The notes under the pieces are model-generated. The model saw nothing but the letters and a program-made list of their open reading frames with translations, was not told the origin of the DNA and searched no databases. From assembly GCA_029204225.1 (NCBI GenBank), contig CM055103.1:67001-131000 (forward strand): DNA of 64,000 bases, given 5' to 3'. Both the position numbers and the translations under genes were made by a program. This stretch comes from Diphasiastrum complanatum (Eukaryota; Streptophyta; Lycopodiopsida; Lycopodiales; Lycopodiaceae). How positions within the stretch are numbered: position 1 is the first letter of the stretch; every line of letters starts with the position of its first letter. This document shows, one piece after another, positions 6,171 to 51,829 of the stretch.

Positions 6171-6183
6171 TAAAAGCAGCGCC

Positions 6184-7370: not shown

Positions 7371-7536
7371 TCTCCTTGATGATAAAAAAAAAAAAAAATG
7401 TTTTTAATGTTATTTTATTCCTTTCCTTGTACATCTCGCCTATTGTTCACCTCGTTCCTTGTTTATACTTCATATCAATACTTATGTACATTCTATGCAT
7501 TTTTTTCTTTTTTTCTTCTGTTCATACTCATGGGTC

Positions 7537-9510: not shown

Positions 9511-9527
9511 GCTATACTAAGGCCAGT

Positions 9528-10920: not shown

Positions 10921-12187
10921 AGACCCTATCAATGATGATTTTCCAAACAAACATCTATTCGAGATTTCATTTGCAAATTCATTATATTCTAATATTATTA
11001 TTTATCTTAAGGATCAGATGTATCCAGGTGGTTACGATTTGGAGCAAAAGATAGTTTTTCAATATAAGGTAGCACCTTATACAATTATTAACAATGTTTT
11101 GTACAAGCTTGGTGTTGACCATCAACTACGAAGATGTCTCAAAACTGAAGACATTAAAAAAGTCATTAAAGCCTTACACTCAGAAGATGCTGGTGGACAT
11201 TTTGCTTTGAAGAATACAGTTAATAAGATATTGACTGCCAAGTATTGGTGGCCAACAATGTTCAAGGATGAATAAAATTTTATTCGATCATGTGATCCAT
11301 GCCAGAGACCTGGTAAGCCTACAAAGGCAATGAATTGGCCGTTGACACCAATCTTGCCTCTTGCACCATTCAAGAAGTGGGGGATTGACTTTGTCGGTCC
11401 AATCAAACCTGTTACCCGACATACGAAATGTCGTTATATTCTAGTTGCCACGGATTATGCTACCAAGAACGTTTAAACAGAGGCGACGAAACGAAACGAT
11501 GTGAAAACTGTCGCGACGTTCTTATTCAAAAGTATAATCACAAGATATGGTTATCCACTTGAATTAGTAAGTGACCGAGGAACACATTTTCTAAATGATA
11601 CGATACAGTTGCTGACAACTTATTTTCTGATCAAACACAGAAAAACTACACCGTATAATCCAAAAGCAAACGGGTTGACAGAAAGAGCTAATGGAATTTC
11701 ATGTAAGGTCCTGACTAAAATTACTATTGCACATGCAACGGATTGGGATCAGAAACTACCATCAGTTCTCTGGGCTTATCGCAACACAGGGAAAATCACG
11801 ACGAAACAGACACCATATTTTCTTACATATGGTATGCATCCTATCTTGCCAATTGATTTCGAGGTGAAAACCTTTCGTATTCAAGCTCAACGAATAGATG
11901 CAGGATTTATGAACGGAAGGTTGACTAATATTAACGGAGGAAATCCAGAAACAAAGAAAGAAGAAATATGACAGTCATATAAAAAAATGTGATCTTAAAG
12001 TTGATGATTATGCTTTGATATATGACAGTTGCCATTAAAAGTTCCCTAGAAAACTCCGTATGCGATGGCTTGGACCGTATAAAGTCATAGAGGTGTTTGA
12101 CAATGGTTCTGTGCAACTTCAATCACTTGAAGGTGAACTATTACCGACATGTATTAATGGGTCCAGACTGAAGAAATACTACCTTTG
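10920..12187 (+). pseudogene. Gypsy 2 integrase
   Basis: The HHCC zinc region spans GGHFALKNTVNK to CDPCQ (11190-11310) with a TAA stop inside it at about 11273. The core reads [17 protein letters not shown] followed by a stop, VSDRGTHFLND and GLTERANG, so both Asp and the Glu of the DDE triad remain. The C-terminal part (MRWLGPYKVIEVF, then NGSRLKKYY) ends with a TGA at about 12186. Broken by at least three stops or frameshifts. Confidence 0.85.
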
Positions 12188-18989: not shown

Positions 18990-19430
18990 TCATGCAAGGA
19001 GGGATTTTGAGAGGGTTCTTGAGTAGGCGGTAAAAGAGGAACTGACTGGCTCTTTTCTACTGGAGAAGTTCCATGAGGCAAACTAGGCATGACTATATCT
19101 TCAAGTTTGTCTACAGGAGTATGACTCATGTCTATAAAATTAAGCATGTGTAATAGAACAGAGACAACAATGTTTAATTACACCCCAAAAAATTGACTTA
19201 CTAGCACATGCAAAGAGTGTATGACCTCATGCATTGACATGCAAAACAAAAGCAAGAGATGTTAGAAATAAATGACTATGCTAAAGTTAATCCATAGGTT
19301 AAGATGACCCAAAAGGTCGAGATTTGTGTAACCATGGGTATTTAGTTATTTATGCCATCTTAAGTTTGTCTTAAGTTCAGTTGGACCCAATTTTGGTCAT
19401 GTACTGACTCGTGGGTCCTTAGGGGTCATA
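18990..19430. other. No gene seen; probable leader or LTR scrap of gypsy 3
   Basis: The sequence upstream of the gypsy 3 gag is pyrimidine- and AT-rich and has no recognisable PBS, repeats or coding frame. It probably includes the untranslated leader of that element. Confidence 0.35.
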
Positions 19431-19436
19431 AACTTC

Positions 19437-20055
19437 GTACAAAGCTTGAGGATAAAGGAGTTAAATGCATTTTTGTTGGCTATAGTAGTGAAAGCAAAGG
19501 CTATAGGCTATTCAATTTGAGCACTAACAAGATTATTGCTAGTCGTGATGTGCATCTTGATGAAAAGAATTCAATGGATGTGGCCCCAACTCATATCTTG
19601 AAGGGGGACAGCCCACATAGTGTGAATGTTGAAGTTTTTCCAGATTTGGTACCATCTTCTATTGTTGGAGATAAGGGGCAGCAATCAACCAGTTTCGACC
19701 TGCCCAACACCTCATCAAGTTTAGAGCCTAATGTTCATCAAGAACCGCCCATTGTTGCTCATAATCAGCCTGCAGAAACTGTTGGACAACAAGGACCACT
19801 TTTGGAAGTGAAGAAAAAAAATGTTTCTGATTACAAAGCCTTTCTAGCTTTCAGCCCTTTGCCTGACGAAGATGTTCGCGAACTCAAACATCTGGAGACA
19901 CGAAACACGAAGAGTTTCGCGAACACGAAAGTCAACCGAGATGAAGATGAACGGTTCGCGAACACGAAATATTCACGAACGAGATTCCTTCGTAGTCCAG
20001 TACGAAAGAAGGCAGACGAGGTAAACAAAACCCGTTCAGCGCTCACGTCCTATTC
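19437..20055 (+). pseudogene. Copia integrase C-terminus joined to a 3' tail
   Basis: The frame reads GVKCIFVGYSSESKGYRLFN then ASRDVHLDE, the conserved end of copia integrase, followed by the Ser/Pro-rich linker that normally precedes RT. At about 19815 the linker passes directly into a segment (19816-20055) that reappears at 22885-23115 behind the RNase H of the copia piece at 21549. RT and RNase H are thus deleted between linker and tail in this copy. Confidence 0.8.
19816..20055 (+). repeat. Copia 3' tail, direct repeat copy 1
   Basis: About 235 bp shared with 22885-23115 in the same orientation (for example GATTACAAAGCCTT and ACGAACGAGATTCCTTCG occur in both). It is the region between the end of pol and the 3' LTR of this copia family. 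It contains several CGCGAACACGAAA-like short repeats. Confidence 0.75.
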
Positions 20056-20194
20056 TCCTGTCTGTTCTGTGCTGATCTGTTTCTTGGGTTTTGGCGGCAA
20101 TCCATGGCTGCATGACCCTTCTTATGGCAATGGATACACTCAATCTTGGGATTGTGCCCGCAGGTATCTACTGTATGCCCGTCTCTTCTGCATC

Positions 20195-20846
20195 TCACGC
20201 AGGTCTTCTTGTTTGTATCTTGTCATTTCGACCTCCCTTTGGTCTTCCAATTGCTCTTGCTGGTCCTCTTTGTTTGCTAGTCACGATCCTGCCTCTGATT
20301 TGACTCCCTCTTAGGGTTGAATTATTTCTTGGATTTTTCTCTGTTGTCGTAGAGAGCCTGATCAAAACCATCCTTGTAATCAAGGTGTTCTCTGGCCTCA
20401 ACTTCCTCTCGAATCTCGACAATCGCCTTTCTGAGGTTTACGGTAGGATCTTTCGCGAGCAGGGTTCGTGTCGTCTGAAAAGACCTAGGTAAGGCTCTCA
20501 ACAGGTACGTGAGCTGCTTCTCAGCTGATACTGCATTCTCTGCTCCAGAGTTGTGTAGAGATAGGAACAGATCCTTCATCTTTCTCATGAAGGAGGTGAG
20601 GTCTTTTCCATCCCATTGTAGATTTGTGAACTGATCTTCCAACATCATGATCTGACCTCTTGATTTCGTCTGAAATCTTGTGAGCAGTGTATCCCACATC
20701 TCCTTAGCTTTGGAGAGTGTAGCCAGGTCAAGTGTAAGGCTATCTTCAATGGAAGATGATAGCAAGGCTACAGCCTTGTTGTTTTTTTCCCTCCATTCGC
20801 GTAGCTCCTTGTCTGTTGTCGTAGGCATTTCTTCTGTGCCATCCAC
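20195..20846 (-). pseudogene. gag: Copia gag (UBN2 type)
   Basis: The - strand frame from 20846 gives the classic UBN2 gag pattern: ALLSSSIEDSLTLDLATLSK, AKEMWDTLLTRFQ, MKDLFLSLHNSG, LLRALPRSFQTTRTLL and EVEAREHLD. It ends at a stop near 20322. The zinc-knuckle region further left (20050-20320) is no longer in frame. The N-terminal residues before MDGTEEMPT are missing or frameshifted. Confidence 0.8.
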
Positions 20847-21085
20847 CTAGGAGAAGAGTCCTTTGCCCTTGAGTATTAAAGATGTCTGAACTTTCTAGGC
20901 TAGAAATTTAGATTTTGAAGAATCAAGTATAGTGCAGATCTTGCTCTGCATGCTGCCGATCGAAGCCATTGTTTCTTGAAGTCTGTTTCTTTGTTGATGG
21001 TTGTTTGTCTGAATGCTTGGCCTCCTGGATCTGCTAGCTTCTTGTCTATGTCAGAATATGACAAGAATCCCTGTTCTGATACCAC

Positions 21086-21548
21086 TGATGAGAAAAAAAG
21101 TGATTGACTGATGAGAAACTCATCAGATTCACGAAATTTTTGCAAAGGCGAATCAATCATGATTTTCTTCAGCTCGGATGGAGTTCAGATGTGACCGTTG
21201 GACACTGCCAGCTGAATCGCTCCTATAATCCTCTAGAGTGTAGTCAGTCACTGTTGATCTGCGTTCATAAAATTAATGCAGCGTTCAACAAAGTTTCAAC
21301 CAAAGTGCGGAATTCAAAATGAACAAGAAAACACAGACATATGAAATATCAGCATAAGCATTCAACATCCAAGATCAGACACAACAAGAAAATAATCTAT
21401 ATTAATTTTTTTTTAAATTTTTTCAAGCATTGCATGCGAATCCACGCAGTGCGTTGGCGTGAAAGAAACACTGTTCTTTCACAAGTAGTAGTCTCGCTTC
21501 ACTAGCAGACAATTGGATCTTCTGATCCTAGACAAAATTGTCTTCGCG
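21086..21548 (-). repeat. Inverted LTR arm (left)
   Basis: 463 bp that are the reverse complement, with scattered differences, of 23410-23872. On the - strand it ends CTCATCA one base before the PBS, so it is the 3' part of a 5' LTR. At 21549 it joins RT sequence of opposite polarity. Confidence 0.85.
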
Positions 21549-22882
21549 TGCATCCTGAAACCTTTTCTCATGTCATCAAACATTCGTCCCTACGTCTATT
21601 ATTTACATATGTAACAGCTTATGACCTCAGGATCCACATTGTGAACGAGAAGATAGCCTTCTTACATGGCGAATTAGACGAAGGGATCTACATGGATCAG
21701 CCCCTAGGATTCGTCTCGAATTTACTTCCTGACTATGTATGCAGAATGCATAGAATCATCTACGGTCTGAAATAGTCAGTCCGAAAATAGTACACGAAGG
21801 AAGATCAAGCCCTGAAATCATTAGGATTCAAGCCTCTGTTGGCTAACTCCAATGTGTATGTCAAAATTACAGATGGGTAGATCATCATAGTGGCTGTATA
21901 TGTGGACGACACTCTGATACTTTGTAGGAGTGAGCAGCTAATTGTTGAGGTGAAGACATATATCTCGAAACATTTCAAGATAGTGGATCTGGGAGAAGCC
22001 AGGTGTTACCTAGGCTTACAAATTGAGAGGGACTATGTGGGAGGTAAGTTATACCTTCACCAGTCCAGATACACCCAGAAGATCCTAGAGGACTTTGGGA
22101 TGCTGAATTGCAAAGGAGCGAGCACTCCAATGCTCGTAGAGATGGTGCTAACAAATGATGACTGTACAAGGACTGACGAAGAGAGAGAACAAATGCATTT
22201 CACACCTTACAGAAAGCTGATAGGATCAATGATGTACCTTGCAGACAACACACATCCTGATATTGTCTATGTAGTATTTAGGATGAGCCAATTTTGCACG
22301 AATCCAGGCTCGACACATAGGAAGATTGCGAAACAAATTTTGCAATATCTTCAATCAATGAGGGATTATGGCTTGTGTTATTGTTGTGGTGCAGGTTTCA
22401 GGATACTTCCCTACAACGATGCTAGCTGGGCATCTCTCAAGGACGATTGTAAAAGCATGTTAGAAGGATGCACCATCGCATCAGGAGCAGCAGTTCTCTG
22501 GGTCAGCAAGAAGTAGACCATTGTAGCCCAGTCATTTTGTAAAGCAGAGTACGTAGCAGCAGCAAAGATGGCCAACGAAATAATTTGGCTAAGGCAGTTC
22601 CTGGACGAATTGGGCGAAACAAGGAACGAGCCTCTGGTCTTGCAGATGGACAACACCTCTGCAATATACCTGACGAAAGATCTCAAATTCCACTCCAGAA
22701 CGAAGCACATTGCGATCAAGTATCACTTGATTAGGGATCTGATTGAAAAGAAGATGATGCAGACCACCTTCATAGGAACGAAAGACATGGTTGCTGACAT
22801 CTTCACAAAGGCCTTGGAGAAAGGACTCTTTGAGAGGCAAAGGAGAAGCCTCGAGATCGTAAAGCTTTTGAGAGGAAGCTGA
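21549..22882 (+). pseudogene. Copia reverse transcriptase and RNase H
   Basis: RT starts abruptly at ETFSHVIKHSSLRLL; the first catalytic Asp (normally MDVKTAF) is Asn in IVNEKIAFLHGELDE. AVYVDDTLIL (21896-) retains the YVDD motif. The connection reads YLGLQIERD, and RNase H has NDASWASLKDD, KAEYVAAAKM and DNTSAIYLTKD, with the end KDMVADIFTKAL. Stops at 21774, near 21880 and at 22515 interrupt it. The end at 22880 is the normal end of copia pol. Confidence 0.85.
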
Positions 22883-23879: not shown

Positions 23880-24545
23880 CTTGGACAGCCAAGTGCGGTG
23901 TCGGAGGATCTTGAACAACAAATTGTAAGAAGAGACATGGTTGTTGGACATCCCAAAACAGTCCCATGGTGGCTGTTGTCGACTTTGCAAGACAACAAAC
24001 TAAGTTCATTTTATGATGGGAAGACATGTGCCTCTGCAAAATTAGTGGACTATGCTGATTTTTCAGATTTTGCTCTTACATCTCATGGAGATGTTGCAGA
24101 AGAACCTGTTTTCTATGAGCAGGCAAGGGAGTAAAATGTTGGGAGGATGCGATGGAAGATGAGCATGACTCACTTATGAAGAACCAGATTTGGGTTCTTG
24201 TTGATCTTCCTCATGGGAAGAAGGCAATTGGTTCTAAATGGGTATACAAAATCAAGTATAAGGCAGATGGTACCATTGAAAGGTACAAGGCAAGGCTCGT
24301 TGCCAAAGGCTATGCTCAACAAAAGGGGATTGATTATGAGGAGACTTTTTCTCCTACTGCTCGAATGACTACCGTGAGGGTAGTAACCTCTTTGGCTACC
24401 CACTTTGGTTGGCATTTGTGGCAACTTGACATAAAGACAGTATTCTTCAATGGTGATCTCAATGAGGAAGTGTACCTTCAACAACTTGTTGGTTTCATTA
24501 GAGGAGTTCTCAATATCAAAAAGACCCTTTGTAAAGATACTTTTA
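23880..24545 (+). pseudogene. Copia linker and RT N-terminal part
   Basis: Linker residues (LGQPSAVSEDLEQQIVRRD) are followed, after a stop at 24132, by RT: NQIWVLVDLPHGKKAIGSKW, YKARLVAKGYAQQKGIDYEE, FSPTARMTTVRVV and QLDIKTVFFNGDLNEEVYLQ. The first catalytic Asp is present. The frame ends at about 24545 in a T-rich stretch, before the YVDD region. Confidence 0.8.
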
Positions 24546-24917
24546 TTTTTTTTCTTTAGTTTCGACCGTCAGCAGGCCCAATCAAAATGCACAGATTTGA
24601 AATCTACGTAACGTAGTTCAAATTAACTAAAAAATAAAAATACAATATAGAAAACTCTGAAATTTGTGTCTGGGCAGCATGGACGTATCCCATTGGTTTC
24701 TTTTTCCTGTCCGACACGTGCTAATCTGTCCGATGTCAATATCTCAAGTTAAATTTACTAACTATACTAGTTACAGTTATAGAAATATAATATGTACAGT
24801 TACATAAAATATGGTATACGCAGTAACTGTGACTATGTTGGCATTCAAGTGATACGAAAAATTAAAATTAAGTAACATATCAGAAAGATTTTTGGCACCC
24901 AAGCTTTGAAAATAACA
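24546..24917. other. AT-rich upstream region of gene i
   Basis: No coding frame. It contains one CACGTG-bearing string (GACACGTGC at 24714) and AT-rich stretches, and precedes the first ATG of gene i. No terminal inverted repeat matching the right side of the gene cluster was found. Confidence 0.4.
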
Positions 24918-26280
24918 ATGGCGAGGAGACCCAGATCTACAATCGATTATGTGATTCTTTACAATGAGAAAGATGAAGCTGATAACTGGAAGCCAACAAA
25001 ATATACGAAGAACTCATGGGTATTGCTGCATCCATCATCAAAGGGCAATTTTTGACAAAAGAAAAGAGCAAAAATGACTTAGAAATCTTATTGGAAAGCA
25101 AAAAATTTGGAGTTTAAGACTACCCCGGGAGGTCAATCGATATCAGAAGTCTTTATGCAACATGTATATATGCATTCAGAAATCAAAGTACATGACTCAT
25201 GATCATCAAAAATGTAATTGTAAGTATATCAAAACATATGCATCTACAGCAATCATAGGTGATTTCCTTTATTGATGCTCTTCAGATTATGATTTAAATG
25301 CTTCAACATTGTTTTTTTCTTTCAGATTTATATCCATCATGCATAAGTGAATGGGAGCCCACACAATCACTTGCAGGAATATTAGACATGATTTGCTCTG
25401 ATGTTGGAAAGCTACAATACAAAGGAAGAAGTCCAAAGGAATTTGCAGATTGTGGTATCTATTTTTATGAATCTTTATATACGCCACAAACAGATGGAGG
25501 TTTTGGTAAGCTCAAAGCAATTCCATTGCCTAGTTTCAAAGTGATGAGTGGCCTACTCCTGACAGCATTGTTTCTGAATCCTTGAGATGCAAGCTACTCA
25601 TTGATATTAAAAATGCTATGAAGATAAGCACATGCTCCAAAATTGTTCACCTAAGTTGGTTTATCTCATTGCATACATTTGTTGATTTTTTCTCGAGTGC
25701 TAGTGTTCGTAGGACACCAACTTTATTTGTTTGCAAGGATTTATCAGATGAGACTTTGTCAGATCTCATGGATCAAGGCTGGGATAGTAAAACAAATAAT
25801 GACATAGAATGCAGGATTAAAAAGTCCTCAATGATCTTTTGTTATCATATCGAAAAGCAAATGCTCAGTCTCACATTTAGCTACCAGAGATACAAGAAAA
25901 TTGAAGGTACATGGCTACCACTAGATCAAGACTTTGAACTAAATGGTCACACAAACCGAATGGAGATAAGCATTATCTACAATGAGGAATATTTGACTAT
26001 GGTTGAGGTGGAAGAGCACTGGAAGCTTGATTTTATCAGAACATAGCTCATGTTATTACAAACCAATCTACCAACATATTTCAGATTTATCATCAACGGA
26101 AGACTTGTAAGTACTTTATGTTTATTGCCATTTCAAAATAGAACAAAATAATAGAAAATGTCATCATTTACAATTGCACATTCACTAATATTTGCCATGT
26201 CACAGATGCGAAAAAGACAGGAGCTGATAACGTGCTGCAAAGATCTACCTACAACAATCACCATTGTGGGAGAACAATAG
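24918..26280 (+). pseudogene. Cassette gene i: unrecognised protein, possible ubiquitin-like end
   Basis: The first ATG at 24918 gives MARRPRSTIDYVILYNEKDE. A GT-AG intron lies at about 25219-25327, with a second at about 26107-26209. Exon 2 encodes SEWEPTQSLAGILDMICSDV, then FADCGIYFYESLYTP, FVDFFSSASVRRTPTLFVCK, DLSDETLSDLMDQGWDSK and PLDQDFELNGH. The C-terminal 75 residues (MEISIIYNEEYLTMVEVEE, then LPTYFRFIINGR, then after the intron MRKRQELITC) alternate like a beta-grasp/ubiquitin-like fold; this is judged by eye only. Frameshifts near 25060 and 25580 and a stop at 26046 break it. The copy at 37300-38250 confirms the conserved blocks. Confidence 0.55.
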
Positions 26281-26475
26281 TTTCAATTAGACTTTAGTAA
26301 AAATCTGTGTATACACCCTTTCATTCAATAAATGTCAGCCCAAGTTGGGCATCTATACATGTATTTTGTGCTCTCAAATTCATAAACTAGAGCAGCATTT
26401 GATATATCAATGTATATTTTTCTATGAAGTCTATACATATAATTTTGTTCTATGCTATCTATATTTTTTCTGATC

Positions 26476-28191
26476 TTAATTTAGTACAATTACATCATCC
26501 TTTGCACCATCATCAATAACGGGAGACTGAAGCCTTGCCCGAACCAGTATACTCAGGATAATTTCTTGTCTAAATCTATACACCTGGCTTGATGTGTACT
26601 CAAGAAGTGTAAACTGCAAAATAGAACATTCATATATTAGTAATGGCCAATAACATCACCAGAATAGAAAACTAATCATGATTCCAAAATAAGAATAAAT
26701 AGAATTTATTACCTTAGAAATATCAACATCTTGTTGAAGGATGAATCACTCAAAAAACAGCTTGGCATTGTACAATGTGTACCACCCACAGTTGAATGAA
26801 TCATTTTGCTGGGGTGACTGCAAAATAATTCAGCACAAAAGAAATCAATTATGAAACAGAATGAATTAGATTGAAAATATTTCATTAGAATACTGATTTC
26901 AAAATGCTATAAAGAAAGAAGAGTTTACCTCCAAGCTAACGATCTGCCAGTCCACAGAATGGGAAACGTCTATAGGAATATATTTACTTAGATATGGAAT
27001 GAATATATATACATCCTTATGTGTATTTCTCGCAGAATTCATCTTGACACAAAAACATTTAATAATATTATTTACAGATCTCTTAATAGAGATAAGGTTT
27101 AAACTCCAGTGGTCACTGCAAAATAAGATTGAAAGTACTTTAGCGGCAATTCTGAGAACTATTTAAATTGAAAATGTCAATGTTAATGCATAAAACAGGA
27201 AGAAGCACTTAATATATCTTACTTGGTAAGATAAGGAATGACCAGATACTTTGTTGCTGGTGTGAATCCACTTGTCAGACACTATGACAATGTGTCATTA
27301 TTCTCCTTGAAGGCCTGGAGCAGAAAGTTACTCAGCACCAGCAACTCGTTTGATGAATCTCTTGCAATGTCAAATTGTAAGAGTGTCAGCTCGGACTCTA
27401 TCACAGGATCACTGATAGAAGTCCATCTGTCTTTGAGATCCAGGCAATCTAGAACTCTAAAATTAATACTAAAATCAAGTTCTTCTAGTCTAAAACAAAA
27501 AGGAGTACCAATTGTATCTATAGCATCCGATATGTCTTTCTCAAATTTATGATAATCATATAGAAATTGGGAGGAGAGGAGGAGGAGGTGGAAGTGTAGT
27601 ATCTATAGCAATATTAGGAGTATCCAAAACAAAGATAGCTATATTTACAGCATTATCAACAGCAGCATTATCTACAATGGATTCTGGGATAGGCTTCACT
27701 TTCTTAGGAGCACGGTTGGGGGCTGTCTGCTTCCTAGGACGTTTCGTAGGAAGATGAGTCCTATCTACAGGAGTTGGTCTAGGATCAGCAGGTTGAGATA
27801 CATGTAACCTACAATACCTATCCCTCATTCTCATCAGAAGCTGAAAATCCTTGGGCATTATGGTAACCCTCTTGGTATGGATGGCAAGCAAAAAAGAATC
27901 CTCAAAAAAAAGGCTAAAATAGTCTTCAGCAGCCTCCTGAAGCCACTGAAGGGCACTCGGTGTGAAGCTAACGTGCTCTCCGAGATCATTTCTTGTTATG
28001 TTCCGGACAGCACAGTAGAATGGAGCTCTTGGGATCAATAGAGCTGTTGACCTCTGATACTTGCGTATCTCAGAGAGCCACCTGCTACGGGTGCACGTTC
28101 TAGGTCTAGCAGGGGGTGTGATGGCAACCGCAGGAGATGAGGATGAGCTAGGAGAGAAGAAGTCTTTCCTTGTCTGCTTTCTCCTATCCAT
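26476..28191 (-). pseudogene. Cassette gene ii: CENH3-like histone H3 fold followed by Ulp1/C48 protease
   Basis: Four exons on the - strand: 28191-27223, 27115-26929, 26817-26713 and 26613-26476, all with GT-AG borders that keep frame. Residues 1-9 (MDRRKQTRK) resemble the H3 tail start. Residues 38-128 are a histone fold: EIRKYQRSTALLIPRAPF, VRNIT, LQEAAEDYF, FFEDSFLLAIH, KRVTIMPKDFQL. LLIP, AAEDY, KDF and a loop 1 one residue longer than in H3 are CENH3-like. A Pro-rich linker follows. After a one-base frame slip at about 27560 come EKDISDAIDTIGTPFC and the Ulp1 core: PYLTNDHWSLN (catalytic His across the first splice), KMNSA (Asp now Asn) and SPQQNDSFNCGW (Gln and Cys). In-frame stops occur in exons 1 and 3. 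It would act on SUMO-like conjugates in chromatin; that role is inferred. Confidence 0.7.
27695..28191 (-). other. Histone H3-like (CENH3-type) domain of gene ii
   Basis: This stretch of exon 1 is fully open. Compared with plant H3 and CENH3 it retains alphaN (EIRKYQRSTALLI), alpha1 (PFYCAVRNIT), an extended loop 1, alpha2 (SALQWLQEAAEDYFSLFFED), loop 2/alpha3 (AIHTKRVTIMPKDFQL). It lacks the usual C-terminal RRIRGE end and instead continues into a Lys/Pro-rich linker (TKRPRKQTAPNRAPKKVKP) that could serve as a nuclear localisation signal. Confidence 0.85.
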
Positions 28192-28259
28192 GGGTGTGAA
28201 CTATGTGATAGCGGACTTGTGCGTGAAGGTTAGGATGAGAAGGAAGGGATGATAAAGAA

Positions 28260-29023
28260 CTCGTAGAGGACCGCTATGTACGGACAGAATGTACGGTATA
28301 TCGGACCTATGCGAGCCGATTATCAGAGAGAATGATTAGATTTGAGGAAAGATGCACAAGTGCGATATGGGGTGACACGTAGGAAGACGTATCGGACCTG
28401 TGTGCATGGAAGGTAGTAGGAGGAATTTTGATCGTGAAGGGCGCGCACAAATGTGATATGCGGAGCGAAAAAAAAAGTGAAAAAAATTCATCAAAATTTG
28501 TGATTTTATATCGGGGTTCGCACATGCGAAAGAACGTCATGTCACATGTGTGGGAGTTGTACAGACAAATGCAAGAGTGACACATGTCACTCTGTCACAC
28601 TACACGTGTGGGATTTGTACGATCGAATGCGAGAGCGACACGTGTTTATAAGCACTCAAATGAACATGCGACACGTGTCTAGGTGTTATTTCACACGTGT
28701 GTAGGTGTCATCTCACACGTGCCTGTGCCTGTTGTCAAACTGAAAGTAGACACATGTCATAAGTCCGTTGAACACACGTGCGAAAATTTAGTATAAATGG
28801 CACGGAAATTGAATAATTTTTTACCTTTTGCGTTCTCGAAATTTGAGACATATCGCTTTTGTGCACGCTCATTTCTGTCCGTTTGCTTGCAAGTATACCT
28901 ACTCGCACACAAGTGCGATATTCTGTATATGTATGCCGTACATATCCATCTTCTGTGCCATTTTGATTGTTAGTTTTGGTTCGGTTCTCCCGCGCGCACA
29001 AGTGCGATATTCACGCTACTGCC
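28260..29023. promoter_or_regulatory. Bidirectional promoter between genes ii and iii
   Basis: A - strand TATAAAA lies at 28504-28510 for gene ii and a + strand TATAAAT at 28792-28798 for gene iii. Between them (28550-28780) are about nine palindrome-like strings of the type CACACGTGTG or CACATGTG (G-box/E-box-like). A second motif, GCACAAGTGCGATAT, occurs at 28354, 28445 (one variant), 28905 and 28997, with the inverted form ATATCGCTTTTGTGC at 28850. The same GCGATAT core recurs upstream of the paralogous gene at 40410-40585. Confidence 0.6.
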
Positions 29024-30505
29024 ATGGCCTCTTCCTCATCATCCTCACGAGAATCAGGCTTGAGTTCATTTCTGAGTGAATTTGGAATTACTAAAAATCT
29101 GGACTACTTCCATAGCCTATTCAGGCCATATCTACATGTTTTCAGGACTGCACAACCAAATTCTAACGTATTTTATGAACATTATGTCAGATTCAGAGAT
29201 ATACTTAGCAAGCTTGTTTTCTCCATAGGTCAACTCCAGTACATGCATTATACTGATCTTGTTAATTTCTTCCCAGCTTTTAGACATAGACTGAATAGAA
29301 TGTTTACCAAATTGTTTGATCTTTTCAAAAGTAGTTCTATGTGTCCGTATTGCAACAAGAAATGTCGATTGGTTGAATATCATAGTGGTTTCATACTTTT
29401 TCTTTTAGTTCAGATCCCAGATGATGATGAGTTTCCTGTTGCTGACCCTCCTTTTGCACCTTCCTCTGTTCAGTCAGCCATTAAGGATATCAGTCACTTT
29501 TTTATCGACACTCCTGATAAAGAAAGTGACTTCATTGATTTAAATACTGATGTTCTCCGAGATTCTTTCATTGACGAAAATACATCTGATGATGAATCCA
29601 GGTCTATGGAGGATTCGAAATGTCTTTTCAATTTGTCTGTATATTATATTAATGACGATGTATATTTACTACTGCTGATTTATGTAAATTTTTTGACTAT
29701 CGTGAGGATGAGGTTCTATGCTTATTATCCGGCACAATTTCCGAATTCTCCGACTTTGTAGATTTTGAGACAGATGACCTTGTTGTTGATGATGAGGAGG
29801 GTCTTATGACCGGTGAAGAATGTCTGAATAAGAGTTTATCAAATATAGCTGAGGATGGGCGAGGCAGACCATCCGATGAAGAATTCACGACATTTCAATC
29901 CCAGATGGGCTTCCCTCGTCCATCATTAATGCATTTCACTGATGATTCCACTTCAGTACGTGATCATTATATTGATCATCCTAATTTAGTTGTTGTTGAT
30001 GATGAAGAATGTGTACGTGTTTAATCTTCCTTGCAATTGAATGTTTTCAATCACTGAATGTGTTTTTGCTAACATATTTCCTATTGCAGGATGCTCTCAT
30101 AATAGATGATTTTGCTGTGAGACAAGGTAATTTCAGACAACACGCATCTTCATTCCAGAGGGACAATGGACTGGGCCACTATTTTCGGCATTTCTTGAAG
30201 AGTGAGATCTGTATTGCTCATTCCAAGCTGAGCCCAGTCGGGGAGACTCTTATAATTTTATTTAGGAGGACATAAATTTGTTAAGACAAATAAAATCATT
30301 TTTGTCAAAAGATCATGTTTTGAACATTTTAGGCTTTACTGATGGGAATGTTCCTTTAAGGAGCTCCCATTATTCATTGTATTCCACTTATATTGAGCTT
30401 AGTGAAAATAAGGATAATGCACATCTATTAGATGCATACGCTAGCAGAGAATTTCTTCATGACAATACTACCATAGAATCTGATACAAGATCTGATGATG
30501 AATAG
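29024..30505 (+). pseudogene. Cassette gene iii: Ser-rich start, Cys pair, acidic protein
   Basis: The ATG at 29024 gives MASSSSSSRESGLSSFLSEF. Helical and aromatic-rich sequence follows (YFHSLFRPYLHVFRT, HRLNRMFTKLFDLFK), then a CPYC/KKC cluster at 29340 that could bind zinc. A long acidic part has repeated DDE runs (DFETDDLVVDDEEG, VVVDDEE). The reading frame shifts once between 29640 and 29720, possibly over a small intron. A GT-AG intron lies at about 30010-30090, then DALIIDDFAVRQGNFRQHAS. A stop at about 30275 separates a last open stretch to 30505. No family recognised. Confidence 0.45.
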
Positions 30506-30638
30506 TTGACACTTTGTATAATACAATCAATACATTTACATTGGGTATTGCTCCTCTCTTGTTCAATGTATTTGCAAAGCAATTCTGAACATGTCATGAT
30601 GATCTTCTACTCAGCAATGATGATCTTCTACTCAGCAA

Positions 30639-33230
30639 TCACCTAATTTTCTCTTCTTGTATGAACTTGCATGCTTTTCTAAACTTGTTGTATTGTGTAG
30701 ACTTTGTTATATGTCGAATCTGAACTCTGCGGTAGAACCACTGAAACAATTGACAAATGTAGTTTCGTTTTTCATTGGTTCCTTCATGTTGTGTATTTCG
30801 ATGAAATGCTGCTCGTGCTTGCCAGTGTGACTTCTCCATCCCTTGTGATGACCATACACTCAAGCTTCCATATGTATTTGCAAAAAATGTTGTATGATCT
30901 CTTAGTATGTGCTGCATATGTCAAAATCATAATGTTAGTCTTATGTTTAGATCTAAATATATATGAAAATTTGAAAGCATTTTGAAAATTTTATACTAAC
31001 CATGTAATGAGTGATGTGATCTTCTCCCCATGCTTTTGATATTGCATTAACAAACTCGACACAAGTCCTTTGGACAACTTTCTTATCAATATCAGAGTAT
31101 TTTTCTTTTCTTAAAATAGCAATCATACTATCAAGCTTTTTCCATACATCAACTTTTAGTACTCTGGTTTTGCCGTCTTTCTCGAAGTCCTGAGTGGCAG
31201 CAATAATATTTGTCCAGACTGAGTGTTGAATATTAGAAGCCTTACCAGTATGATTTGATAGAAAACGACGTGCTTTTGCTCCTCCTATGCTTGGCTTAGT
31301 TGGCATGTTCTCATTCTTTCCTGAAAGCTTTTCATCTTTTTGAATTTTGACATGTCCTTTATGGAGTCCTGCTTTTGATAAAACATCTTCTAATCGAGAG
31401 ATATCTTCCTTTGCTAATGATGCTGGCTTAGTATTCCAAGCAAAAACTATATGAAGATAAATGATCTTTTCTATTAATCTAACTTCTGCATGAAGAGTGC
31501 AAACATGCACATTTTTTAAGGGAATAGACAGCACAGGCTTCCAGTTTGGATCTGCATATTCTTTAGTAATTCCTGTACTCCTAGTTACATCTTTTGCCAT
31601 TTTCATGCAGTACAAACAAGAGTGTTTTGATGTAGCACCGTGAGAGACATTATACATACATTTCAATGTTTTCAAATCACCTGCTAAGTTCCATTCAACA
31701 TTGAAGTCTCCAACTCCTGGAACATTGAAAAATCCTCCATCCATATGGTCCTTGATGATCCTAGGATAAGATGTCCTTGAGAATATCCATGATAATATAT
31801 CATGATCCTCTTTCAGCACCTGTCCAAAGAATTGATCATACTTAGTTTACAATGTATTAATACTATTCAATGAATGTAATGTAATAATGAGGCTAGTTAC
31901 TTGAAACGCTACCAACCACCATATATCATTTTCTGACTGGACATTGAATTTAAAATATTTTTGGTTCTCTGTTTGGGATAGAGCACCATTCATGAGAGTT
32001 ATACTAACCCCCCTTTCACAATTTCCGACTCATCTAACTTAAGTACTATGATTATTTTGCCATTCACCTTTTCATAGGTTATATCATAGAATGTGACGAT
32101 GTATCTCAACAAGTAATTTAGATCAACAAATAAATTGTTTGATGAATTATAGATTATCGATCTTCCATCAGTTTCAAACACCTCCTCAATATGAAATGGA
32201 GTTCCAGTGATCTTATGCACACCTATGTTTAATGTATCCCTCTCTTTCTTCAAGTGGTATGTCCTAGGGATTGGGACTTTTCTAATTTGAACTTGCTTAA
32301 AAGCTTCTCTAATTAGTTTAAATATTGTTGCATATGCTTCCCTACTAATACCTGCAAAATCACAAGCACCCTGAACTATAGTCTTATCTAAATATTTTGA
32401 ATGTCCACCATCAAAGACTCTACTATTTTACACTTTGCATTTGAAATCCTATTGTTCATCATGATACGCTCAGTGGATTTGCAAGTCAATATTGTGCCCA
32501 ATGACATTCCTAGTGAAGCATTGTCTTTAATATTCCGAGGAGCTACTAATGCAGATCTGCAAAAAAAACAGATAGTTAATAGAATATCAACATAGCTGAA
32601 ATTAAATCCAAATGTCATTAAATGCAAGGATATTCAAATTCTTTTGAAAGCATTTGAATATCCTTGCAACTTTGTCGCTTTCGCTTCTTACTTTCAAATC
32701 CACATCCTGCAGTAATTGTAAGTTTTCAATACGAATAGACTGTAAGACTGATTGCATTTGCTCTAGTTCTGATTTGATATTGATTCCTATCTCCTGTAAT
32801 GATTCATTATTTTTTTAAGTTGTTGATTTTCTTCTAACATCTTTTGGAGATGAAAATCTCTATTCTGACAATAATAGGATATCCGAATTAACTCACCTTC
32901 TAAAAAGTGAAATTTATTCATATAAAGTTGTTTTCCATGGTTTTGCAATCTTTCACAATATCCTAGTAATCCACTATGCCCATTGCATATCCATGTAACT
33001 AAATGAGTTATTGAAGAGAATGTGGGATGTGTCAAAGTGCTTGGATCTTGTGGATATAATGTTCCATCTGTCCACAAATCCACGTTTTTCTTTCCTTCTG
33101 CCCTGTAACAAGAACGATCTTCAGCAGATATTTGAACTCCTTTGCCTCATCTTCTCTGCAAAGGTGCCAAATCAACAGGGATATCCACATGTAGATGATA
33201 TAATGTCATCATCAAAAAAATAATAGAGTA
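30639..33230 (-). pseudogene. Cassette gene iv: coiled coil plus DDE transposase-like protein
   Basis: Exons on the - strand begin near 33230. The N-terminal part (LWTDGTLYPQD) runs into a coiled coil (LQKMLEENQQLKK, then ESLQEIGINIKSELEQMQ). After an intron come the blocks IIIVLKLDES (Asp at 32032-32034), VSITLMNGAL, WNLAGDLKTLKC (Asp at 31676-31678), KHSCLYCMKM, HVCTLHAEVRLIE and, in the last exon, SQGMEKSHWQARAAFHR (Glu at 30834-30836) to a stop at 30639. The spacing D, GD-K, CxxC, LHxxxR, GxEK matches an uncharacterised RNase H-fold family I have seen expanded in animal and fungal genomes; a transposase role is inferred. Frameshifts at about 32810, 32400 and 32000. Confidence 0.55.
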
Positions 33231-33299
33231 ATCACTTGCATCAAAGTACTATGACCAGATTCTATGAAGCAAAACAAAATACTCATCTTTGATTATATT

Positions 33300-33640
33300 A
33301 TATACTATGTACGATCAATCCAATCTCCATGCTTGTATGTTTGATTCAAATTTGGAAATGCCGCTCATTTTTTCATTCCAATAGGTAGTTGGCGCTCATA
33401 TTTCCATTCTCGTGGAAGGAATGCATATGTAAACATTTTGCAATTTTTTCTGATTCGAATTTGGGGATGGCGGCCATATTCTAGATCCAGTGAAAATATT
33501 GCCCTTTTTGTAACCAATGGAGTTGGGGAGGCCTTGGGAGTGGTGTGGGCAAGCAAATAAACAATATTGTTTTATTTATTTTGATATTTTTGTATATCCT
33601 ACATGGCATTCCTTAAAGGGTCTTTTTGATATTGAGAACT
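33300..33640 (-). promoter_or_regulatory. Upstream region of gene iv with imperfect direct repeat
   Basis: Two imperfect copies of TGATTCRAATTTGGRRATG followed by GC-rich CSGYCATTTT lie at 33342-33370 and 33451-33480. A TTGGCGC string (33395) between them is near the E2F consensus. All lie upstream of the - strand gene iv. Right of 33520 the sequence merges into copia remnant. Confidence 0.3.
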
Positions 33641-34068
33641 CCTCTAATGTTTGGTTGAAGGCCAAGAAGATAAAGTTTGTCTTCTCAAGAAGACACTTTA
33701 TGGACTGAAGCAAACTCCGAGGATGTGGTATCAAAAGATACATGCCTACTTTTGTGATCGAGGGTTTACAAATAGTCCTAGCGAATCTACTCTTTATGTC
33801 AAGCATACTTTAGATTATATCATCATTATTTTGCTTTATGTTGATGATATTATTATTACGGAAAGTAATGAGCAGTAGATTGACGCCGTAATACTTGATC
33901 TTGGTATGGTTTTTGAAACCTTTTAGGCCTATTGCACTTTTATCTTGGTCTTGAATTTGTACAGAAAGGGGCTGGAATTTTCATCTCGCAAGAACGCTAC
34001 ATTGGGCAGATTTTGAAGCGGTTCAAAGCCGGTTGCTACACCTATGGAGACAGGTCTGAAATTAAGTA
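33640..34068 (+). pseudogene. Copia RT fragment with YVDD
   Basis: The frame 33651-33878 reads DKVCLLKKTLYGLKQTPRMW, then LLYVDDIIITES. After a stop the next frame continues with the conserved copia block (HFYLGLEFVQ-like) to about 34070. It is a short fragment with no gag, integrase or RNase H attached. Confidence 0.75.
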
Positions 34069-37310: not shown

Positions 37311-38250
37311 TTTTGCAAGTTTATATTCTCCAATAGAAAGGAATGGAAACCATTTGGATCTGTTGCAAGTGTATTGGATGTACTTTAAGCTAATATTGGA
37401 CAATTTGCAATATAAAAGTAGAACTACAATATAAATGATCTTGTTGATTGTGGAATTTTTTTCAATGAGTCAATGTATATTCCCGATTTTGAAAGGGGAG
37501 TTTGGGAGAATCCAGACCATCCCACTATCTTGTTTAGAAGTGATGAATTGATTACTCCTGATGCCTCTGTTTCAGAATCATTTCGATGTAAACTGTATAA
37601 TGAAATAAAAAAATTCATTAAAGATAAGTACTGGTTCAAAAACAGTTTGATTAAGATGGTTTGTTTCTTTGAATATGTTTGTGGATTATTTTGCAAGTGT
37701 TGATGTACACAAAACAAAAAACTATTTTTGTTTGTAAAAATTTATCGAAAAGTATACTATTTAAGCTTATGGATGAAGGCTGAGAATAAGAAATAAAATG
37801 GAGATATAGAATGCAGAATCAAAATGTCCACCATATATTTTCATTATTAAATAGAAAAACAAAAACTTAGCCTCTACTTCCATTACCAAAGATGGAAAAA
37901 AATTAGAAGTAAATGGGTACCATTGGATCAAGATCTGGAACAAAGTGGACACTCTGAGAGGAGCAATATTGACATAATTTACAGTGATGGACTTCTAACT
38001 TGTATTGAGGTGGAGGAAGATTGGAGCCTGAGTTACATTAGACATGAACTATTGCTCCTACAATATGATATATTCACATGTTTCAGATTCATTTCCAATT
38101 GTAAACTGGTAAGTTGTTTTAAACATTTCTATTCTTATGTAGTAGCTTATATCAACAATCGATCATATAATAGCTATTCTTAAATTGTTATTTTAAAAGA
38201 TGTATTTCTAAACGCATCACAATTTGTGTCAATTTTTTGCAAGTATGTAA
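37311..38250 (+). pseudogene. Second copy of cassette gene i (degenerate)
   Basis: After a TTGCAAG acceptor at about 37320 the conserved blocks of gene i reappear in shifting frames: SVASVLDVL, VDCGIFFNESMYIP, VSESFRCKLYNEIKKFIKD, FVDYFAS-like, GDIECRIKMS, EKQKLSLYFHYQRWKKI, VPLDQDLEQSGHSERSNIDI, VEEDWSLSYIRHELLLLQYD and FRFISNCKL, with a donor GTAAGT at the same place. The match is spread along the whole gene, which shows that gene i is a real, repeated coding unit. Confidence 0.65.
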
Positions 38251-38589
38251 AAGACACGAGCCTGAGATCAAATGCAGATATATTGAAAAATCTATTCAAA
38301 TATTGAAGGAACATTAAAATTTAGTATCATAACAATAAAATTTCACCATTATTATGGAATAGAAACCAAGTAGAAATTATAATACAATGATATCACATAG
38401 ACACAGTTTCATTGTAACAATTCATATTCATATCAATGAAAGTTCCAAAGATGAGTTGAGTACAAGTAATATTGTATCTATATTTGATGATAATATGCAC
38501 ATTTGAATTGTAATAAAAGTAAAATTTCTATTCAGTAATTTAAAAAAATAAAATAAATATAGCAAGAGAAACATCAGGTAAGATTGCCT

Positions 38590-40326
38590 TTTTCTACGCT
38601 ATTTCAGAATTAGGAGTTTGATAAAGCACAATATCATGTCCTGATGGTTGCGCTTCCTCTTCATTGGGAAGGACTTGTATCCGTTGACCGTAAGTAATAA
38701 AATTTGCTTCTTGAGCAACCTTAAAAGGCTATCAAAGAACGGGCGGCATTTTTGGTATCACCTTTGGGGATGTCAATTTGAGAAACAAAAAATTTGTTAT
38801 TTGTAACAAAAACGTAAATCAGCTCTTGGCGCAACATGTGCACTTCATCGGAGTTGTATGGTTCGATTGTGAACTGTCATTGACAACAAGACGGATAAGT
38901 AACTTTCTCAAAGTGACACTAAAGAAATAAGAACTAAAATTGAAAAAATCAAATGAAAAGATTTCTCAGTTCCAAATTAAAATTAAATTTATATTACCTT
39001 ACTAAGATCAACGTTCACCTGAAGATTATACCACTCACAAAATAATTTTGTATTGTACAGAACAAGCCATGCACAACTGAACGAATTTCTCTGATGTATA
39101 GACAACATATATTGAAAGAAAAGTATTAACATTCTAAAAAACATTCTCTTCCACAAAAAAAAACACAAAACTAATGTTCATAAAATTATATGAATAAGAA
39201 ATAATGTTTCCTAAACAGATTTTATTTGTATATTGCCAATTGAATGACTTGTACAAAAAAATGTTGAGGCTCCAATGTCGATTGCAATTTTTAAAAGAAA
39301 TTAGTGACCTCATATAAAAAGATTTAAAGATCAAATTAAAAGACAAATATTTCTCAAGTGATTGATGGGAATCGAGACTATTGTTTCTCCACAAAAATTT
39401 TTGAGCTGCTTCAACAATTACGTCCAAAATTTTAGCCATTTTATTTTTCATTTTGTCACAAAATTTGGGACTCATCTGAAAGCTTTTCTAGGAATTTGGA
39501 AGAAAAAATCAAAATAGTTGCTGAGACGATCAATCATGCTGGCTAAATAGGCCTCATACTCATTATAGTGATCAAAATAATAATTTTTTTTTGCCTAGGA
39601 TCGTAGAGGGTTTTTACAAAAAAAAAAACGTATAGGGGTCAGGAGAGAGGAGGAGACAATATCTATAGATCTTCCCACAATGTTGTCAAGTTCCTCTTGG
39701 GTTATCTCTTGTTTGGGAGAAGAAACTTTTTGAATAGCCTAAACAGCAATACGAGGAGAGTCAAAAGACTCTGAGGGTTGGAGAGGATGATGCGTGGGCA
39801 CTTGCTTGGAATCACTCTAGGAGGAGCTGCAGCAACTGGCCTATGCAATTCGGCTTTAAAGGGACGGGTCTGCTTTCTCTTCGTCCTAGAGGTGATGGGC
39901 AGATCTGTCTTGTCCAAAGGCAAATCTCTTGAGGTGCTGGTGTTAACAACGTGAAGATTTGAATAATACGTCTAAAGCTGTCTGAGGATTACAAAATCCT
40001 TAGGCAAGATGATAACATGCTTATCGTGCACGACTAAGAGACAAGAATCCTCAAAAAATTGGGCCAGGTAATCCTTTGCAGCACCTTGCAGGGCCTGCAT
40101 CGCATGTAGTGAATCTCACATGCAATCCCAATGATAGTGTGACATTTCTAATAGATTGATTGGAAGGAGATTTAGGAATCACTAGTATAGTAGATCTCTG
40201 TAATTTCCTAATCTCACTCAACCACACCTGCTTCCGCCCACGACAATGACCAATACTAGGGGGAATACAGGCAGAAGAGGGTTGGACAATGGTATGTTAG
40301 CGAGCTGTGGACTTAACACGGGCCAT
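38590..40326 (-). pseudogene. Second copy of cassette gene ii (H3-like plus Ulp1)
   Basis: The ATG at 40324-40326 gives MARVKSTAR followed by a stop, nearly the canonical H3 start MARTKQTAR. Next come WLSEIRKLQRSTILVIP, a frameshift, then AMQALQGAAKDYLAQFFED and KHVIILPKDFVIL, and a basic linker (39700-39923). The Ulp1 part shows HYNEYEAYLASMIDRLSNYF, RHWSLNIF (His at 39275-39277) and RNSFSCAWLVLYNTKLF (Cys at 39073-39075). The donor GTAATA at 38997 and the final exon (FTIEPYNSDEVHMLRQELI, from 38873) match the gene ii exon borders. Many stops. A - strand TATATAAAAA lies at 40618-40627. Confidence 0.7.
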
Positions 40327-40989: not shown

Positions 40990-43100
40990 ATGACTTATTA
41001 TTTGCAAAGAAGAAAATCAATCTCAAGGCCCAAAATGTAATGGATCTCTCCTAGATCTTGCATTTTAAATTCTTTTCCTATTGCATCTTTGGCTTCTTGA
41101 ACTAGCACCAAACAACTTCAACTAAGAATAATGTCATCTACATAGATTAGAAGAATGACAATATTACTATCATCAAATTTTAAGTACATAGAAGGATCAT
41201 AGTCACTAAGCACAAATCCTAATGAAAGTAAAAAGTTGTTGAGTCTTGAATACCATGATCTAGGTGCTCGCTTTAAGCCATAAAGAGTTCTAAATAGCAA
41301 ACACACCTTAGATTTATCCTTGATAAATCCTTGAGGCTGTTCCATGTATATCTCCTCCTCAAGATAGCCATTCAAAAAAGCGTTGGAGACATCAAGTTGA
41401 AACAGTTTCCACTTAAAAAATAAGGCAAGAGAGATTATGATTCTTATTGTCACCATCTTTGCTACAGGAGCAAAGGTTTCTTCATAGTCAAGGCCATATA
41501 TTTGTGCAAAGCCTTTAGCATATAATATTGCCTTGTACTTGTTGATGGAGCCATCATGATTGTACTTGATCTTGAACACCCACTTGCATCCAATGATATG
41601 CATGTAAGGTGGTGGATCCACTAGCTCCCATGTGTGGTTGGTGATCAAGGCATCATATTCAATCTTCATGGCCTCATACCACTCCTTGGTATTGAGGGCT
41701 TCTTGAACATCTTTGGGCTCCTCATGAGAAACAAAATAAGCATAAGTGGAATCAAGATCCACCTGCTTTCCCTTGTCATCATAAGTGAGCCTCTTGGGCT
41801 CGGATCTCTCCCTCATGGATCTTGTAGGAGTGAAAATCCGAGGACTTCCATCTTCAAATCTTGACTCCTCCATATGTTGATTGTCTTCAATAACAATAGG
41901 TGATAGATTTTGAGGTTGCTTGATCTTGGCCCCTCCAAGATTGGACTTTTCTTCTTCATGAAAAACTACATCTCTACTATCAATTACTTTAGACCTTCTT
42001 TCTCGTTTGCATCCAAATACTCTAAGGTGTTCAACCTTAGGTTTTTTCAAATAGAGTGCTTCATATGGTGACTTTCCTCCAAGTGCAACATGAGGGAGTC
42101 TATTGCAAAGATAGTTTGAACAATTGATAGCCTCACTCCAAAAGTCTTTTGGCAAGGATGCCTCAATTCTAATGGTTTTGGCACATTCACATAGTGTTCT
42201 ATTCTTTCTTTCAGCCAACCCATTTTGAGATGGTGTATATGCACAAGAAAACTCCCTTTTAATACCTTCAAGCTCACAATAATCATGAAATTTATTGGAA
42301 GTGTACTCACCACATCCATCACTTCTAAGAATCTTGATTTTGTAAGAAAATTGCTTTTCAACTAGAACTTTGAACTTTAGAAAATAGTCAAACACCATAG
42401 ATGTTGAAGCTAGAAAATATACCCAAGTAAATCTAGTGAAATCATCAATGAAAGTTACAAAGCAAGTAGCACCACCCTTGCTCTTTGAAGATGAGAAGTG
42501 CACATCCGAGTGTATGAGCTCCAATGGATGTGTAGTCTTGATAGATGACTTTGAAAAAGGCTTCTTATGAGACTTAGATATGGCACAAGCCTCACATGGC
42601 TTGAAATTCTTGGAGATAAGATTAGGCAAGCCAATAGCTTTGGCTTTCTTGACTATGGACACCATGGAATTATAGTTAGGATGTCCCAACCTTCTATGCC
42701 ATAGTTCCTCCAAAGAAATATGAGAAGCAAAAGCACCATCACAAGAGTTAGCATACTCTTTGGGATCAAGCTTGTAGATTCCACCATGTCTAGACCCAAA
42801 TGCAAGGATCTCATCATGCTTCTTGATTGTACATGTATCAACATTGAAATTCACATCTAGTTCACTATCAAACAATTTCCCAACACTAATAAGATTTTTT
42901 GTTAACTTAGGAACAAAAAGTACTTTAGACAGAGAAAGAACTTTTGATGAAGAAAGCTTTAAGGGAATGGTCCCTATGCCTTCAATAGCACACTCATGAT
43001 CATTTGTTGTGTAGATGGACTTCTTGGCTCCTTCATAAGGTGACATGGATGAAAAAGAATACTTGGAGCTACACATATGTGAGGAAGCTCGATATACCAT
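40990..43100 (-). pseudogene. Copia A pol: protease end, integrase, RT (660 codons open)
   Basis: The frame 43100-41118 is open for 660 codons. The protease active site is damaged: WYIE in the gag frame and YRASSHM here replace WYIDSGASSHM. Integrase has HRRLGHPN...CEAC, FIDDFTRFTWVY, LRSDGCGEYTSNKF and NGLAERKNRT, so its acidic triad is present. After VFGCK the frame jumps to SRDVVFHEE, so about 40 residues of the integrase C-terminus are deleted in frame. RT has KWVFKIKYNHDGSINKYKA, QLDVSNAFLNGYL and LLIYVDDIILS. After a frameshift FKMQDLGEIHYILGLEIDF is still readable to about 41000. Confidence 0.85.
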
Positions 43101-43980
43101 GAACCATCCTTCTTGAAAGGTGATGAAGAAAAACTCGAGACCATAAGAGATTCCTCTCCATCACTTGCATGAGCATCTTCCTTCTCTTCATTAGAAATGT
43201 TGACTTGCTTGAATTGACTCTTCTTCTTGAAGCAATTTGTGGCATAATGCCCCTTCTTGCCACAAAAGAAACACTTGATGTTTTTCTTCTTTTTCTTGGG
43301 TGTGGAAGCTTGAGAGGACTCATCCTCTTCTCCTTTCTCCTTGGAAATAAGATTGTTCTTGCTTGAAGAGGATTGGTGTTGATTCTTACTTCTTGTCTTG
43401 TGCTTGTCTTTGGTAAAGAGAGCTTTACCATCAATGTTGAGAGACAGTCTCTCCATTTTCAAGAGTTTATACTCTTGTCTTGATTCTTCAGAAATGAGCA
43501 CACTTTGGAGTGCTTCCAAACTTGGTAGCTTTTCCTTAATGGCATAACTCTGAACAAGGTTGTCATATTCCTCCTTTAACCCATTAAGTATGACTTGAAC
43601 AAGTTCATTTTGGTTGATGGAGTCTCCTATGCATGACAATTCTCTATGGGGGTCTTTAGCTCTCATTACATAAGCTGAAGCACATTCATCACTTCTCTAT
43701 ACACTTTGAAAAACTTGGTTTCTTAGTGTTAGAAGTCTAGAAGTATTCTTTGCCTCATAGATAGACTTGAGAGTATCCCAAGCATCTTTGGCATTAGTAC
43801 AAGCACCAATTTCTCTTAATATGTCATTTGAGACATTCACCTTAATATAATACAGAGCCATCCTGGCTCTCTTTTTGTGGAATTTCTTGAGGAATTTGTG
43901 GTTCTTCTTCAATGCCAAGTACAATATCCATCACATCTTGTAGTATTAAGACAGATTCCATTCTAACCTTCTAAATTGAG
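42974..43980 (-). pseudogene. gag: Copia A gag (UBN2) with zinc knuckle
   Basis: 43924-43697 encodes NVSNDILREIGACTNAKDAW and SIYEAKNTSRLLTLRNQVFQ; after a stop 43666-42974 continues with RAKDPHRELSCIGDSINQNE and VQVILNGLKEEYDNLVQSYA. A Ser/Lys-rich stretch and an intact knuckle CFFCGKKGHYATNC (C-x2-C-x4-H-x4-C) follow. It then overlaps the pol frame. Confidence 0.85.
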
Positions 43981-51590: not shown

Positions 51591-51829
51591 TCCTAGTATT
51601 TCCTTCCTTTTTTTTAGTTGTCTTCAATTGCAATTAGGAAAAAGCTTCTTTTTTTACATCTAGGAAATTGTCATATTTTTCTTGTGAGCTGATAATAGTG
51701 ATATTATGGAATCCGTGAAGACAAGACAAAACATAAGATGAATACACTGAAGTTATCAAATATAAAGAAGGCACTTTTTACCAAAGTTATGAGTACTTGT
51801 GTTTTATGCACACAGCCCACAACCCGCTT

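Follow-up and report, generated by a model that had tools for sequence, protein, structure and literature searches.

A histone H3 fold and a Ulp1-type protease domain share one gene in a high-copy DNA transposon of Diphasiastrum complanatum

Introduction

Why would a histone H3 fold and a SUMO-protease domain be encoded by one gene, and does that gene serve the host or an element that resides in its genome? The question is raised by a 64,000-bp stretch of the D. complanatum genome (C12:67001-131000; hereafter the window), for which a preliminary description had proposed such a gene, likened its histone part to the centromeric variant CENH3, and pointed to CENH3 loading. We find that intact copies of this gene, here termed H3-Ulp1, encode both domains in one spliced protein and that the gene is carried by a DNA transposon of 9,154 bp (Table 1). 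We propose, with a probability of roughly 0.55, that H3-Ulp1 serves as an accessory gene in an unnamed, probably plant, type of DNA transposon and that its product would act as a chromatin-tethered deSUMOylase, shielding the element from silencing.

Intact copies encode both domains in a single protein

The first exon encodes a true histone: window positions 28191-27559 on the minus strand match the Pfam model Histone (PF00125) with an E value of 5.9e-26 (91.5 bits; curated cut-off, 26.4). The three introns (27223/27115, 26929/26817, and 26713/26613) all have GT-AG borders, and the positions originally proposed for them match the spliced model to the base. The window copy itself is broken. The frame slip in a CCT repeat, previously taken for the sole break, is accompanied by two in-frame stops, one late in exon 1 and one in exon 3, and the product terminates at residue 211. 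When exact splice motifs were tried on ten copies, including the one in the window, all motifs were present in three. Copies C7a and C2a give an intact spliced product of 470 amino acids, and the C7a protein matches both Histone (1e-27; 97.3 bits) and Peptidase_C48 (PF02902; 1.1e-10; 42.2 bits versus a curated cut-off of 20.7). The separate short exons of the window gave no C48 match; the domain is detected once the exons of an intact copy are joined into the spliced protein.

The predicted model of the histone half contains three helices, alpha1 (residues 55-70), alpha2 (78-106), and alpha3 (113-130), at a predicted local distance difference test score (pLDDT) of about 80-88. An alphaN helix (35-47) appears at low confidence (pLDDT 55-59), and its sequence aligns with that of H3 alphaN. 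Among the 50 matches listed by Foldseek against PDB, 49 titles name a nucleosome, a hexasome, or a histone octamer. Searched against PDB by sequence, the first half of the intact protein retrieved H3 (7e-23); the second half matched a Ulp1-like SUMO protease at 8e-4 and yeast Ulp1 at 1.2e-3. In the alignment of C7a with Ulp1, the catalytic His and Cys and the oxyanion Gln are in place.

The gene belongs to a high-copy transposon

The element is bounded by perfect 35-bp terminal inverted repeats (TIRs) and is inserted in a copia-like open reading frame (ORF). In the genome scanned (1.745 Gb in 5,176 contigs), the terminus has 1,687 matches with at most one mismatch (828 and 859 on the two strands), and the reversed control has none. 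Alignment of nine copies to the window delimited a conserved unit (92-97% identity) of four genes: A, which encodes the transposase, B, C, and H3-Ulp1. A Pfam scan of genes B and C gave no match above the family cut-off. Of 7,471 first-look candidates for the histone ORF, at least 150 were scored as copies, and 39 of the 150 (counted from the table of copies) are stop-free in the matched part. An open frame of 1,939 amino acids among these copies was discarded, as it corresponds to an assembly gap of N. Because the gene lies inside a high-copy TIR transposon with its own transposase, and because the window copy is broken, the suggestion of a host gene that takes part in CENH3 loading finds no support.

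A second, diverged element repeats the gene order, as had been noted: identity is 42-54% in four pieces and 31% in one piece of 35 amino acids (37.3-40.3 kb). One piece gives a weak histone match (E value of 0.16), and a search for the ends of this element (37341-40272) did not find them. On the same contig, copy L002 (C12:332586) has a histone ORF 98% identical to that of the window, with the same in-frame stops and the same number of gapped codons; the two are probably a segmental duplication.

Table 1. Coordinates of the transposon, its genes, and the second element in the window
Feature	Position	Strand	Evidence or remarks
Whole DNA transposon	24496..33649		Perfect 35-bp TIRs; 92-97% alignment to other copies; empty-site comparison
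TIR, low-coordinate end	24496..24530	+	Perfect 35-bp match; genome-wide terminus count
Gene C, convergent with histone gene	24891..26148	+	Conserved across copies; 42% identical in second element
H3-Ulp1 exon 4 and stop	26476..26613	-	
H3-Ulp1 exon 3, catalytic Cys region (PQQNDSFNCGW)	26713..26817	-	One in-frame stop
H3-Ulp1 exon 2, catalytic His region (NDHWSLN)	26929..27115	-	GT-AG borders; homologous to C48-positive copy C7a
H3-Ulp1 exon 1: tail, histone fold, linker, Ulp1 domain start	27223..28191	-	Broken by the frame slip and by an in-frame stop
H3-type histone fold, residues 30-125	27817..28104	-	PF00125, 5.9e-26; model; fold match
Gene B, CPYC zinc-like motif, divergent from histone gene	28970..30502	+	Conserved across copies
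Transposase gene A, several exons, disrupted here	30642..33248	-	tblastn pieces; ORF motifs; 33 homologues
TIR, high-coordinate end	33615..33649	-	Perfect 35-bp match
Second, diverged element (part)	37341..40272	Gene C +, 37341-38120; C48 pieces -, 38772-39102; histone -, 39852-40272	tblastn

Both domains are under selection

The ratio of nonsynonymous to synonymous polymorphism (pN/pS) was calculated for 34 copies, 30 of which were already stop-free in the histone part when selected, which biases the set toward well-kept copies; a few of them (e.g., L041, L044, L046, and C3a) are homologous only partly at the 3' side. For variants common to at least four copies, the ratio is 0.08 in the tail, 0.28 in the H3 fold, 1.18 in the linker, 0.24 in C48, and 0.17 in the C-terminus, where changes are few. 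Ratios over all pairs are 0.39, 0.40, 0.80, 0.57, and 0.86, respectively. Both the histone and the C48 domain are under selection. In the aligned frame, with insertions relative to C7a left unscored, 11 of the 34 copies have no in-frame stop.

In four of the 34 copies (L003, L005, L006, and L007), codon 97 of the histone fold is a TAG. This common stop suggests that a subfamily bearing it was spread in trans.

A RAG1-like transposase and apparent insertion without target-site duplication

The pieces of gene A carry the motifs KLDE, AGDLK, CLYC, HILRDH, and QGMEKSH, and motif spacing in homologues adds to the evidence for its assignment. One homologue, P0016, has a RAG1/Transib fold, that is, an RNase-H fold with a RAG1-like insertion and the matching order of Zn-binding motifs. 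The transposase of the element is accordingly taken to have a RAG1/Transib fold, and its linkage with H3-Ulp1 is read in this genome. No RAG2-like gene was recognized in the element. When IMG/VR viral contigs were searched with the transposase and with the histone profile, there were pattern matches and no relative.

Four of six two-ended copies with readable flanks could be compared with empty sites, which are related insertion-free sequences found among the compared DNA. No target-site duplication was seen in these four comparisons or at the flanks of the remaining C7a and C5a. A flank repeat is absent in five of the six copies; only in the window copy is the element flanked by AAA at either end. 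Among the comparisons, C18 and C2a are strong. In C18, three rows are ungapped near the junction and a fourth, L022, is gapped there; in C2a, the junction is identical, with a 14-base difference nine bases off. The element thus seems to insert without a target-site duplication. By eye, the insertion flanks show no clear target motif.

Insertion by RAG/Transib elements produces a 5-bp target-site duplication, and their termini read CACAGTG/CACWATG. In contrast, our element shows no duplication where this is testable, and its TIR starts with CATTAGAG.

Other assignments were considered and rejected. For CACTA/EnSpm (CMC), the profile Transposase_21 (PF02992) had no match up to an E value of 1 in the 10 of 33 transposase homologues scanned, the terminus reads CATTAG, and there is no target-site duplication. 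For the Kaonashi group of Vandal Mutator-like elements (MULEs), no MULE profile occurred among Pfam matches up to the same value in the same 10 homologues. Spy elements insert without target-site duplication according to the available text of PMC4482050, and both types share this property. However, Spy targets AAATTT and has a PHIS-type transposase only, whereas the flanks here vary (AAA/AAA, ATG/AGT, GAT/CTT, CTC/ATC, and others) and are not AAATTT.

Relatives in ferns and in diverged copies of the same genome

The preliminary description had called for a search of other genomes of the same clade for an intact copy with both domains. A fern protein has both parts. In a protein profile search, 7,993 candidates were scored and 2,975 reached an E value of 0.01 or better. 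The best 120 of these comprise many ordinary H3 proteins and double-length H3 models, plus a distinct set that includes P0106 from Ceratopteris richardii (13 member sequences). Among 23 proteins of the distinct set that were compared, 8 start with MARTKQTA followed by two basic residues and 19 show the looser MARxK type. The two-part protein is P0126 from Adiantum capillus-veneris (511 amino acids), which matches Histone at 2.2e-23 and C48 below the Pfam threshold (0.013; 15.8 bits); its C48 part aligns with that of C7a at 1e-10 (a single pair, 35% over 60 residues). When the fern-type and lycophyte-type families were compared by profile over the sequence that follows the histone, the match was not significant. 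The available text of the Ceratopteris genome paper (PMC9477723) has no mention of histone, DNA transposon, transposase, or TIR.

Six further regions of the D. complanatum genome were identified: L070 and L073 with open exon 1 frames, the close copy L069, and three represented only by tblastn pieces. L070 starts with MARTKQTAR (Histone, 8.5e-25) and L073 with MARTKQTVR, and exon 1 of both ends in an IPY motif where C7a has a motif of its own. The other exon 1 pieces scanned did not reach the C48 profile. The ancestral tail was probably ARTKQTAR.

Two high-scoring proteins, P0001 and P0002, were set aside as tandem H3 models. Many plant entries named histone H3-like centromeric protein (CSE4, CNA1, CENH3), such as P0054, P0059, and P0063-P0070, are about 275-310 amino acids long. 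Since these sizes are near those of the tandem models, such names are probably wrong.

Is the histone half derived from CENH3?

The CENH3 character proposed earlier is upheld in part. On the one hand, the element histone shares with plant CENH3 the H3 fold, LLIP, EAAED, and a loop 1 longer by one residue, and its relatives, like CENH3, have RVTLM.KD and open alpha2 with a Trp. In a tree of 39 sequences, three of them CENH3/CENP-A rows, element histones form one group (ultrafast bootstrap [UFBoot] 78) adjoining plant CENH3 (UFBoot 77), both values being below 95. On the other hand, the approximately unbiased (AU) test did not reject a grouping of element histones with H3 (p = 0.11), and the element histone differs from both plant CENH3 and canonical H3 in being fused to C48, borne by a transposon, extended after alpha3, and placed in its own group. 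The grouping depends on the diverged copies L070 and L073: the 37-sequence tree without them did not recover a single element-histone group, and in the first tree the sequences of the window were placed apart from the remaining element histones, with P0147 at an unsupported UFBoot of 32; they joined the others when the two copies were added. With UFBoot values under 95 and an AU test that does not reject the H3 grouping, we favor a CENH3-like origin and do not consider it proven.

A genome search with an Arabidopsis CENH3 query placed 13 likely canonical H3 loci at the top (59% identity), and the matches listed include 137 lower-scoring H3-like places, of which many have a long open frame. Among these listed matches, we recognized no separate CENH3 exon of the host.

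A proposed role and its alternatives

Plant DNA transposons with a Ulp1-domain gene are already known. In Kaonashi (KIU)-carrying Vandal/MULE elements, the domain resides on the VANC anti-silencing protein, and the available text states that the role of the Ulp1 domain itself in such transposons is unknown (PMC13317346). By analogy, VANC-Ulp1 would be a close functional precedent for H3-Ulp1; however, Ulp1 is joined here to a histone H3 fold and the relatives of the transposase have a RAG1-like fold, whereas Kaonashi elements are non-TIR MULEs. Ginger1 transposons also contain a Ulp1 (or OTU) protease domain, which rides on an integrase-type transposase, and a histone is not mentioned in the main text (PMC2836005). 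In the part of the open-access literature covered, with Repbase outside the search, we came across no histone H3 described as encoded by a transposon, whether by itself or joined to Ulp1.

We envisage one spliced protein in which a CENH3-leaning H3 fold is followed by a Ulp1/C48 protease domain. The histone half would pair with host H4 and enter or dock on nucleosomes, which would place the protease on chromatin. There it could strip SUMO from silencing proteins or histones, and the element would be transcribed, or its ends and targets would be opened to the RAG1-like transposase. Host chromatin may thus be a direct target of the element. A bolder version, to which we give slightly under even odds, is that of a plant superfamily with a RAG1-like transposase and duplication-free insertion whose CENH3-derived histone would enter host nucleosomes and bring a SUMO protease to undo silencing, i.e., a transposon-encoded histone variant.

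Several observations weigh against this explanation of the gene and its element. In the H3-Ulp1 family, Asn (KMNS) seems to stand where Ulp1 normally has its catalytic Asp, which makes SUMO-protease activity uncertain. The transposase fold is read from the homologue P0016, which is 39% identical across 87% of the query, and not from the copy in the window, and no copy with every transposase exon open was found among the seven with listed frames and the window (checked on frames, without modeled exon borders). Finally, the empty-site cases of C16, with small compensating gaps nearby, and of the window copy, at 68% identity, are weaker than the other two. The attribution of the element type to plants draws on its fern relatives and on the repeats present in the window.

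The apparent Asn at the triad position also invites the view that the protease is inactive and that H3-Ulp1 has a structural or targeting part in the transposase complex, as a subunit that binds SUMO or nucleosomes in a RAG2-like role. RAG2 reads the H3 tail, the transposase is RAG1-like, and the N-terminus of relatives resembles that tail. Yet C7a retains His, Gln, and Cys, the C48 domain is under constraint, and Cys-His-Asn triads can work in other cysteine proteases; we regard this view as unlikely. Slightly less credence goes to a decoy that never enters nucleosomes and titrates or mimics H3 toward tail readers, chaperones, or CENH3 loading factors. Such a protein would fit the H3 tail start retained in relatives (in the 8 of 23 noted above) and the altered tail and loop 1 of the window subfamily, but constraint covers the fold as well as the tail, and in the window subfamily it is the tail start that drifted from ARTKQTAR while the fold was kept.

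Capture of gene fragments by plant transposons is documented in the available text of PMC13317346, and H3-Ulp1 might be a functionless, Pack-type product of host H3 and Ulp1 fragments joined by chance. This explanation is disfavored, and we consider it improbable: shared-variant pN/pS is low in both domains, the H3 part and the start of Ulp1 recur in diverged subfamilies of the same genome, and both parts recur in a fern. The least probable reading, to which we assign hardly any weight, is a host kinetochore or chromatin gene that was repeated incidentally; its CENH3-like residues speak for it, whereas its place beside a transposase in a TIR element, the scored copies, and the 1,687 termini speak against it.

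If H3-Ulp1 is the chromatin-tethered deSUMOylase that we propose, the fused H3 fold would address the protease to chromatin, and the role of transposon Ulp1 domains would become directly testable. Antigen-receptor recombination arose from the RAG1-type transposase group, and a duplication-free RAG1-like transposase in a plant-like genome would broaden the range of that ancestral group. Histone annotation may also be misled by this genome, where first-look histone candidates number in the thousands.

Other features of the window

Mobile elements are nested throughout the window. Visual inspection of ORFs points to Gypsy-like, copia-like, and LINE-like fragments at positions 1611-11971, 19364-22882, 41118-43696, and 60811-61806. 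A likely host gene at 52207-53040 (minus strand) has an ORF of 277 amino acids that starts like a signal peptide and contains a KARVRITNNSGRNIQPGSIYVSHKY stretch. Another ORF, at 51793-52164 (plus strand), consists of repeats of a peptide roughly 25 residues long (RADSMRLLSNYIKAGNYELNFHRA).
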